A program made the translations under genes and the position numbers. From Actinomycetes bacterium (lineage in GTDB: Bacteria > Actinomycetota > Thermoleophilia > RBG-16-64-13), in NCBI GenBank assembly GCA_024637035.1, contig JAGXFW010000012.1, forward strand, positions 1 through 64,000: a DNA stretch of 64,000 nucleotides, written 5' to 3'. Under the pieces are notes generated by a model. It searched no databases. It saw nothing but the letters and a program-made list of their open reading frames with translations, and was not told the DNA's origin. Position 1 is the first letter of the stretch, and each line of letters begins with the position of its first letter. Shown here one piece after another: positions 2,545-10,095 of this stretch.

Positions 2545-2564
2545 CTGATTAATCGATCAATTAG
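2545..2564. promoter_or_regulatory. 20-bp palindromic operator, site 1 (divergent mtbB / dehydrogenase region)
   Basis: CTGATTAATCGATCAATTAG. Its reverse complement differs from site 3 at 2 of 20 positions. Confidence 0.7.
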
Positions 2565-2601
2565 CAATTAGTGACGACGTCCCCGGGGAGGCTCGCGCGA
2601 G

Positions 2602-3519
2602 ATGAGGATCGGCTACATCGGATTGGGCAACATCGGGAAATACCTCGCGGGGAGCTTGGTGCGAGAAGGGTTCGAGGTCACGGTGCACGACCTCAACAAG
2701 GACGCCGCCACCGACCTGCTCGCCGCGGGTGCGTCGTGGGCTTCGTCGCCGGCTGAGACGGCTGCGAGATGTGACACGGTCATCACGTGTCTCCCCTCGC
2801 CGGAAGCCGTCGCGGCGGTAGTCACCGGGGAGAACGGCGTCCTGGAAGGATGGGGCGGTCGGGGCGGCACCTGGATCGACATGAGCACGAACGACCCTCA
2901 CGAGCTGCAGCGCTTGGCCGCGATCGCATCCGAGCAGGGAGTAGCCTGCCTCGAGGCGCCGGTCACGGGCGGGGTGCACACCGCGGCGTCCGGCAACATC
3001 ACCGTCATGGTGGGTGGCGATGAAGCCGTCTACGAGACCCACCTGCCGGCCTTTCAGGCCATGGGTGGAAAAGTCTTCTATATAGGGGTGCTCGGCAAGG
3101 CCACCGTCATCAAGGTGATCACGAACATGTTGGCGTTCATCCATCTGTATGCGTCCGGCGAAGCCTTGATGCTGGCGAAGCGCGGCGGTATCGACTTAGG
3201 GTTGGCCTACGAAGTGATCAAGGCGAGCTCGGGAAACAGCTTCGTGCACGAGACCGAGAGCCAGCTGATCCTCAACGGCAGTTACAACATCAACTTCACC
3301 ATGGATCTGGCGCGCAAGGACCTGCACTTCGCGTACGAGATGGGCAGGGAGTTCGGCGTGCCGCTGGAACTCGCGGGCCTGGTGGAGCAGATCTTCGCCC
3401 GGGCGCGGGCGGAGTATGGGGGCGATGCGTTCTCGCCGATGGTGTGTAAGCTTCTCGAGGATGCCTGCGGCACCGATCTGCGGGCACCGGGGTTCCCCTG
3501 TGAATTGGAGCCGGTTTGA
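2602..3519 (+). CDS. NAD(P)-dependent oxidoreductase, 3-hydroxyisobutyrate dehydrogenase family
   Basis: N-terminal MRIGYIGLGNIGKYLAGSLVREGFEVTVHD Rossmann motif and family-like EAPVTGGVHTAASGNITVMVGGD. Confidence 0.88.
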   Translation: MRIGYIGLGNIGKYLAGSLVREGFEVTVHDLNKDAATDLLAAGASWASSPAETAARCDTVITCLPSPEAVAAVVTGENGVLEGWGGRGGTWIDMSTNDPHELQRLAAIASEQGVACLEAPVTGGVHTAASGNITVMVGGDEAVYETHLPAFQAMGGKVFYIGVLGKATVIKVITNMLAFIHLYASGEALMLAKRGGIDLGLAYEVIKASSGNSFVHETESQLILNGSYNINFTMDLARKDLHFAYEMGREFGVPLELAGLVEQIFARARAEYGGDAFSPMVCKLLEDACGTDLRAPGFPCELEPV

Positions 3520-4319
3520 GCGGGAGCGAAGAGACGGCTGCCATGCACATCGGTGATTTCACGATGGACTTCTTCTCCTTGCGGGGCAGGAACGCCATCG
3601 TGACGGGCGGTAACACGGGGTTGGGCCAGGCCTTTGCCCTGGCGCTGGCCAAGAGCGGCGCCAACGTCCTGGTTCCCAGTATCATCGACGACGACGGCTC
3701 CACCAAACAGATGATCGAGGCGGAAGGCGTGCGCTACGAGTTCATGAAGGCCGACATCACCGCGCCGGGCGCCCCCGCACAGATCGTCGATGCCTGCGTG
3801 GAGAGGTTCGGTTCCATCGACATCCTCGTCAATAGCGCGGGCGTCTGCCCGATGGCAGAAGTCCTCGAGTTCGGCCGCGAGCAGTGGGACGCCACGGTAG
3901 CGGTGAACCTGACCGCCGCCTTCGAGATGAGCTACGAAGCGGCGAAGCGCATGATCCCTCAGCGTGCCGGCAAGATCATCAACATCTGCTCGCTCTTCTC
4001 GTACCTCGGCGGGAGGTGGTCGTCGGCCTACGCTGCCACCAAGCACGGGCTCGCCGGCTTCACCAAGGCATACTGCGACGAACTCGCCGAGCACAACGTC
4101 CAGGTGAACGGCATCGCACCCGGGTACTTCGCCACCGAGATCACTACGAAGACGCGAAGCGATCCGGAAACCAACAAGCGCGTGCTCGACCACATCCCGA
4201 CGGAACGCTGGGGCGAACCTCTCGACCTCATGGGCGCCGTCGTGTTCCTGGCGAGCCGTGCCTCAGACTATGTAAACGGCCACGTCATGGTGGTCGACGG
4301 CGGCTACCTGGTCCGCTAG
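3516..4319 (+). CDS. SDR family oxidoreductase
   Basis: NAIVTGGNTGLGQAFALALAKSGANV, YAATKHGLAG active-site motif. 4-bp overlap with the previous gene. Confidence 0.9.
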   Translation: MSGSEETAAMHIGDFTMDFFSLRGRNAIVTGGNTGLGQAFALALAKSGANVLVPSIIDDDGSTKQMIEAEGVRYEFMKADITAPGAPAQIVDACVERFGSIDILVNSAGVCPMAEVLEFGREQWDATVAVNLTAAFEMSYEAAKRMIPQRAGKIINICSLFSYLGGRWSSAYAATKHGLAGFTKAYCDELAEHNVQVNGIAPGYFATEITTKTRSDPETNKRVLDHIPTERWGEPLDLMGAVVFLASRASDYVNGHVMVVDGGYLVR

Positions 4320-4339
4320 GGCGGGGAAGCGGGAACTCG

Positions 4340-9192: not shown

Positions 9193-9222
9193 GAGCACTA
9201 ACCGATCAATCAGTTAGCGCTC
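9193..9222. promoter_or_regulatory. Palindromic operator site 2, upstream of tetR
   Basis: GAGC-A-CTAACCGATCAATCAGTTAG-C-GCTC; inverted repeat extending beyond the 20-bp core (9198-9217). Confidence 0.7.
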
Positions 9223-9316
9223 CAATCCACACCGGCGGGGCACCGCGTGCTGAGCGCGTGCGGCGTGCGGGCCGGGAGACGGAGAAGCCGACAGTCGCCG
9301 TAGAGAGCGAGGATCT

Positions 9317-10027
9317 GTGAAAGCGGGGCAGGGCCAGATCGATGTGGGGGAGACGAGCGACGCGGTGGCGCTGGATACCGCGTCCGCGGTGCACTTCGAC
9401 TTCGACAACCCGTTGTCGGAGCTTCCGGAGGTCGCGCGGAAGCTCCTCCTGGCGGCCAAGAGCATCGTGGCCGACCAGGGCTTCGATGCCCTCAGTCTGA
9501 ACTCCATCTCTGAGGTGTCGGGCGAGAACAAGGCCATGATCTCCTACTACTTCGGAGGCAAGGCTGGTTTGATCGCAGCCGTCTTGGACTCGGTCATCCA
9601 CGACGAGTACTTGATGTCCGTGGCGAGGATGAAGGATGTGGGGACAGGCGAGCGAGTACCCCGCATGATCGACGAGATGCGCCGCATCACCACGGCCCAT
9701 GATGAGTTCCGTGTCTTCTTCGAGTTGCTACCCGTAGCGCTCAGAAACGAGATGCTACGCAAACGTATCGCTCTTCTGTACGAGTGGTACCGCAGCGAGA
9801 AACTCGGTTGGCTGGGAGTCCCTGACGTTCAGGATGCCCTCGACGACCCCGGCATACTCGGCCTCTCCCAACTCCTCTCTGCCTTCATCGATGGGATAGC
9901 CATCCAGACAGCCATCGATCCCGACCTCGATCTCACCAACGCATATGCAGTTCTCTCCAAGATGATCGAAAGCTGCTTCCCCGAGATCTCCGGCGGTGTG
10001 GCGGTGTCGTCGGAAGGCTTGGCGTAG
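9317..10027 (+). CDS. TetR/AcrR family transcriptional regulator
   Basis: HTH region ARKLLLAAKSIVADQGFDALSLNSISEVSGENKAMISYYFGGKAGLIAAVLD. Confidence 0.9.
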   Translation: MKAGQGQIDVGETSDAVALDTASAVHFDFDNPLSELPEVARKLLLAAKSIVADQGFDALSLNSISEVSGENKAMISYYFGGKAGLIAAVLDSVIHDEYLMSVARMKDVGTGERVPRMIDEMRRITTAHDEFRVFFELLPVALRNEMLRKRIALLYEWYRSEKLGWLGVPDVQDALDDPGILGLSQLLSAFIDGIAIQTAIDPDLDLTNAYAVLSKMIESCFPEISGGVAVSSEGLA

Positions 10028-10075
10028 CGTTTGCCAGGGGACCTACGGTTCCGGGAGCGTTCGAGGACGCCGGAG

Positions 10076-10095
10076 CTAATTGATCGATTGATTAG
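10076..10095. promoter_or_regulatory. Palindromic operator site 3, upstream of the ABC transporter
   Basis: CTAATTGATCGATTGATTAG, followed by TTGACA at 10099-10104. Confidence 0.7.

Follow-up and report, generated by a model that had tools for sequence, protein, structure and literature searches.

In this study, three 20-bp palindromes in the 64-kb stretch of DNA analysed (the window) were found to share a genuine motif that is confined to a single gene cluster of the genome. Sequence comparisons suggested that the palindromes are operators of the TetR/AcrR-family regulator encoded in the same cluster (tetR, 9317..10027, + strand). With a probability of about 0.83, TetR is an autoregulated local repressor of a three-operator regulon, which would consist of tetR itself, an importer, mtbB (with mttB) and an operon of dehydrogenase, kinase, oxidase and Etf genes. 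The mechanism of such a regulon is ordinary; the genes under its control are unusual.

Gene Organization of the Cluster

On the - strand, the window carries mtbB of the dimethylamine methyltransferase family (1004..2416), in which an in-frame TAG at 1352-1354 is read as pyrrolysine. The protein was assigned to the Pyl-containing MtbB family (Dimeth_Pyl) by a TIGR02368 score of 529 bits against a cut-off of 369, together with the in-frame TAG. The end of mtbB is overlapped by an mttB-family gene (15..1007, - strand), whose frame reaches a TAG at 15-17 and continues beyond the contig end. On the + strand, a catabolic operon starts with a 3-hydroxyisobutyrate dehydrogenase-like gene (HIBADH, 2602..3519) and continues with a KduD-like SDR dehydrogenase (3549..4319), an FGGY carbohydrate kinase-like gene (4340..5776), a GlcD-like FAD-linked oxidase (5810..7252), and the beta and alpha electron-transfer flavoproteins (EtfB, 7249..8127; EtfA, 8124..9095). 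The same strand then carries tetR, the candidate repressor gene, followed by the SBP_bac_5 solute-binding protein gene of an Opp/Dpp-type ABC importer (10252..11889). The importer's two permease genes and fused double ATPase (11968..15691, + strand) were named from position and sequence.

Position, Pattern and Rarity of the Palindromic Sites

Candidate operator site 1, CTGATTAATCGATCAATTAG, lies at 2545..2564 in the divergent mtbB/HIBADH intergenic region, site 2, CTAACCGATCAATCAGTTAG, at 9198..9217 upstream of tetR, and site 3, CTAATTGATCGATTGATTAG, at 10076..10095 upstream of the SBP_bac_5 gene. Measured to the predicted start codons, site 1 lies 37 bp upstream of HIBADH and 128 bp upstream of mtbB, site 2 stands 99 bp before the GTG of tetR, and site 3 stands 156 bp before the solute-binding gene. 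One symmetric pattern, CTRAYYRATCRATYRRTTAG, fits all three sites, and at up to three mismatches it matched nothing beyond them in the 64-kb window. With both strands counted, six matches were observed, against a mean of 0.14 and a maximum of 2 in dinucleotide shuffles of the window. In the genome census, which was done by pattern searches, the three sites were the only good matches in 3.57 Mb; a single extra match, with three mismatches, equalled the control level (one match per strand for the reversed pattern).

The sites were also scored with weight matrices. A matrix built only from the tetR-upstream sites of another family ranked the window sites 1, 2 and 3, at 23.3, 22.5 and 17.8 bits, and the next independent match in the window reached 8.6. 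When the tetR-upstream sites of both families were used, the window sites scored 28.6-29.6, and the maximum in Markov-1 random windows was 14.5. The original prediction had reported the three palindromes at these positions as one motif, in the mtbB/dehydrogenase region, before tetR and before an ABC transporter. The sequences are exactly there, they behave as one motif under both the pattern and the other-family matrix, and the gene context agrees, with the TAG-containing mtbB, tetR and the importer in place. Random occurrence throughout the genome had been named as evidence against a regulon, and the motif was found to be restricted to the cluster.

The extra genome match (C15:112349-112368) is a palindrome-like 20-mer resembling the motif, located between LysR-like and FAD oxidoreductase-like genes, and it has a counterpart at G070:C53:20138-20157. 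Its near flanks are as conserved in G070 as the 20-mer itself, and it was left unassigned. A 4-bp internal periodicity was also observed in the operators (for example, TTGA TCGA TTGA TTAG in the site at 10076-10095), and it gives rise to weaker matches shifted by 4 bp. Such a periodicity might suit two offset dimers.

Promoters Adjacent to the Sites

Direct matching of hexamers revealed a promoter-like TTGACA-17-TCTAAT sequence (11/12; 2512..2540, + strand), which is predicted to serve the HIBADH operon; a scan requiring A at the second position of the -10 hexamer, where a C stands here, found nothing. Both hexamers (TTGACA at 2512-2517 and TCTAAT at 2535-2540) are kept in a locus of the same genus, L005, and the predicted start of this promoter falls within site 1. 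Because the two hexamers before site 1 are conserved, operator 1 would cover the position where HIBADH transcription is expected to begin. In the window, the promoter facing mtbB was poor (8/12), so control of mtbB by site 1 is less sure in this species than control of the HIBADH operon. In two related loci, L173 and L174, a TTGACA-17-TGTAGT promoter is followed by the operator, which stands directly before mtbB. This predicted promoter-operator arrangement provides the clearest evidence for the methyltransferase itself as a member of the regulon.

Conservation of the Sites in Related Genomes

A contig search returned eight TetR orthologues, and a second search, across 399 genomes of the class, returned the same kind of set together with more distant ones. 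The close orthologues came from 10 genomes, the window's own included, with TetR identities of 58-87%. The palindrome was found upstream of tetR in all 10 genomes. It also precedes the Opp-type (SBP5) importer in eight of them, synteny adding a ninth, and in most it lies upstream of mtbB, usually at a distance of 60-90 bp. All three sites are kept in L005 (TetR 87% identical). Site 1 there departs from the window sequence twice, each time in a way that the motif permits, and again lies 37 bp before HIBADH; site 2 has one difference, and site 3 is identical together with the next 10 bases. The substitutions between the two loci remain within the motif. A second HIBADH copy (74% identical; L005:8896-9801), absent from the window, is divergent from tetR across site 2 in that sister-species locus.

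In the second family (f3), the half-site reads CTAAYYGACC in place of CTAAYYGATC. A matrix derived from tetR-upstream sites only was used for blind prediction. It predicted importer sites in L043, L044, L045, L052, L204 and L205, about 113-149 bp before the importer gene in the first four, and mtbB sites in L173, L174, L201, L202 and L206. In L173 and L174, the predicted site is about 62-64 bp before mtbB within an MttB-HIBADH-SDR-FGGY-FADox cluster; the HIBADH-SDR-FGGY-FADox set adjoins a site-bearing mtbB in the second family too. Over the comparison loci, this matrix gave one match of at least 15 bits in 865 kb. The importer sites of the other family were weaker, with up to three mismatches.

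The genome census added G068, with an importer site and a site 65 bp before mtbB; G008, with an mtbB site; G062, with an mtbB site at 85 bp and no importer site found; and G084, with an importer site, a HIBADH site at 47 bp and a weak site 67 bp before mtbB. In G032, which has the gene cluster, the tetR and importer sites are kept and no site was present at mtbB; an intervening reading frame there is AsnC/Lrp-regulator-like by sequence reading, an AsnC-type gene being confirmed only in L203. No mtbB site was found in G090, where the importer lies off the contig. In the more distant G056 (L048; TetR 47%), the gene set is the same but the inverted repeat is another one, TTAACC-N4-GGTTRA. It occurs at 7094 and 12280 of L048, at two promoter regions: that of HIBADH and the importer, and one separating two MttB genes, of which one carries a TAG. 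The weight matrix of the window motif does not transfer to G056, and regulator and operator there appear likely to have diverged together.

TetR as the Candidate Binder

Another regulator, for example a TetR paralogue encoded in the same genome or a protein of the AsnC/Lrp type, might bind the motif in place of the nearby TetR. At least four TetR paralogues, 36-40% identical, are encoded in the genome, an AsnC/Lrp-type gene stands beside a related cluster (L203), and motif-like sites precede some TetR genes that are 42-43% identical (L058, L060, L061). However, the sites track this TetR orthologue over 10 genomes, its own upstream region always included, and such sites are missing where the window's genome encodes the paralogues (L053, L054, L055), so we regard a different binder as improbable.

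The TetR encoded at 9317..10027 has the domains expected of its family: an N-terminal HTH (Pfam TetR_N, PF00440; 30.7 bits against a cut-off of 24) and a BetI-type C-terminal domain (TetR_C_6, PF13977), which barely passed its cut-off (28.2 against 27). A structure model from nine sequences was all-helical and of moderate quality (mean pLDDT 69.5), and its fold matches serve as a lead only; the single-sequence model, with a pLDDT of 38, was unusable. Among the closest solved folds were the Saccharomonospora viridis TetR structures 4ich, 4nel, 4kwa and 4jnn (about 21% identity, TM-score about 0.5). The S. viridis match has crystal structures with choline and, going by an abbreviated title, with N,N-dimethylmethanamine (trimethylamine), which gives a lead, and no more, towards an amine ligand for TetR. 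The choline-responsive repressor BetI has the same type of C-terminal domain, but the window TetR scored far under the BetI equivalog cut-off (37.4 against 201.3 bits), and no bet genes were found among its neighbours.

The predicted arrangement resembles that of autoregulated local TetR/AcrR repressors of catabolic clusters: a palindromic operator precedes the regulator's own gene and linked transport and catabolic operons, an operator lies over a promoter start, and an HTH is joined to a helical ligand domain. It differs in that the genes here are pyrrolysine-type methyltransferases and a sugar-acid-like catabolic set, and in that TetR is a candidate binder.

Extent of the Proposed Regulon

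The original prediction proposed TetR autoregulation and control of three promoter regions, and it called the whole a candidate methylamine regulon. The former was strongly supported by comparative genomics, through the sites before tetR, the SBP5 importer and mtbB and through the blind predictions; the label overreaches. The motif is missing from the pyl/tRNA-Pyl locus and from the other mtbB/mttB genes that were examined, so the regulon is not a general methylamine regulon. The pyl locus (G000:C33:444000-463900, L180) contains PylB, tRNA-Pyl, mtbB and mttB genes, and the suggested scan near pyl genes detected no site there. A global methylamine/pyrrolysine regulon, in which the same TetR also governs the pyl genes and other mtbB/mttB copies, would accord with a cluster holding Pyl-type mtbB and mttB, which depend on the pyl machinery. 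The missing sites at C33 and near the other mtbB copies examined, and the adjoining TetR of the C33 locus, which is 36% identical, make it very unlikely. In the genome (G000), that of a Thermoleophilia-type actinobacterium, 16 MttB-family matches and no fewer than four mtbB genes containing an in-frame TAG were counted, and Dimeth_Pyl matches were obtained in 21 of the 399 genomes of the class.

TetR paralogues of about 31-44% identity often adjoin other MtbB/MttB genes (L095-L097, L102, L108, L111, L112, L116, L127, L131, L134, L138, L140, L141, L148 and L149), which suggests many dedicated regulator-methyltransferase pairs.

Intergenic palindromes are common, but chance AT-rich palindromes, or another element of no regulatory role such as a terminator hairpin, are scarcely credible as an explanation in view of the shuffles, the genome count, the conservation and blind prediction across two families, and the position of the sites before genes.

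Phylogeny of MtbB

A tree built from 46 MtbB proteins placed the window pair in one clade and the cluster-linked mtbBs of the second family in another, each supported at 100/100; one row marked 'no group' (L083, G068) likewise belongs to a cluster-linked mtbB. Between the two families, identities for HIBADH, SDR, kinase and oxidase are about 60-85%. The separate clades of mtbB, despite the similarity of these four genes, suggested either that an MtbB came under this regulator repeatedly or that the lineages lost different ancient paralogues.

Proposed Mechanism and Substrate

We infer the binding and repression by TetR, its ligand and the substrate as follows. In the absence of the ligand, a TetR dimer, or a pair of dimers, would occupy the three palindromic operators and block three promoter regions, namely those of its own gene, of the Opp-type importer and of the intergenic region from which the mtbB and HIBADH operons diverge. 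Repression would be lifted when TetR binds either the substrate taken up by the importer or an early product of its metabolism; the ligand is probably N-methylated and built on a hydroxylated carbon skeleton. The importer, the pyrrolysine methyltransferases and the dehydrogenase, kinase, oxidase and Etf genes would thereby be made together. TetR may instead act as an activator, a role that the sequence also allows.

The usual assumption is that Pyl-type MtbB uses dimethylamine as its substrate. The co-regulated genes of the cluster point to a carbon-skeleton catabolic pathway for an N-methylated substrate. Because the importer, dehydrogenase, kinase and oxidase would be co-regulated, and an enolase-superfamily gene lies beside mtbB in G070, the gene content suggests a larger hydroxylated N-methyl compound rather than dimethylamine. 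In Eubacterium limosum, choline first receives a phosphate group and is then demethylated by an MttB-family enzyme (PMC12155760), a possible parallel to the kinase in the window cluster. The MttB-superfamily clusters of E. limosum, such as MthB/MthK for choline, likewise combine a methyltransferase with substrate-preparing genes, a kinase included (PMC12155760), whereas the window methyltransferases have Pyl codons and stand beside an FGGY kinase, SDR, HIBADH, FAD oxidase and Opp-type importer. Few members of the MttB superfamily, six, have an assigned substrate (PMC12155760). A literature search of incomplete coverage turned up no publication that deals with this operator or with Pyl methyltransferases of Thermoleophilia. 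Tentatively, the cluster may encode a pyrrolysine-dependent pathway not yet described, for the uptake and demethylation of an N-methylated, hydroxylated compound larger than dimethylamine, and the same TetR control may govern different MtbB lineages in the two families; we place this proposal somewhat below even odds.

Through the conserved regulon, a Pyl-type MtbB is linked to a single importer, a single pathway for a carbon skeleton and a single TetR sensor. Finding the ligand that makes TetR let go of its operators would give the probable substrate and thus a direct experimental handle. One member of the large methyltransferase set of these Thermoleophilia appears to have its own local regulator, and the paralogous TetR genes suggest that the same may hold for others.
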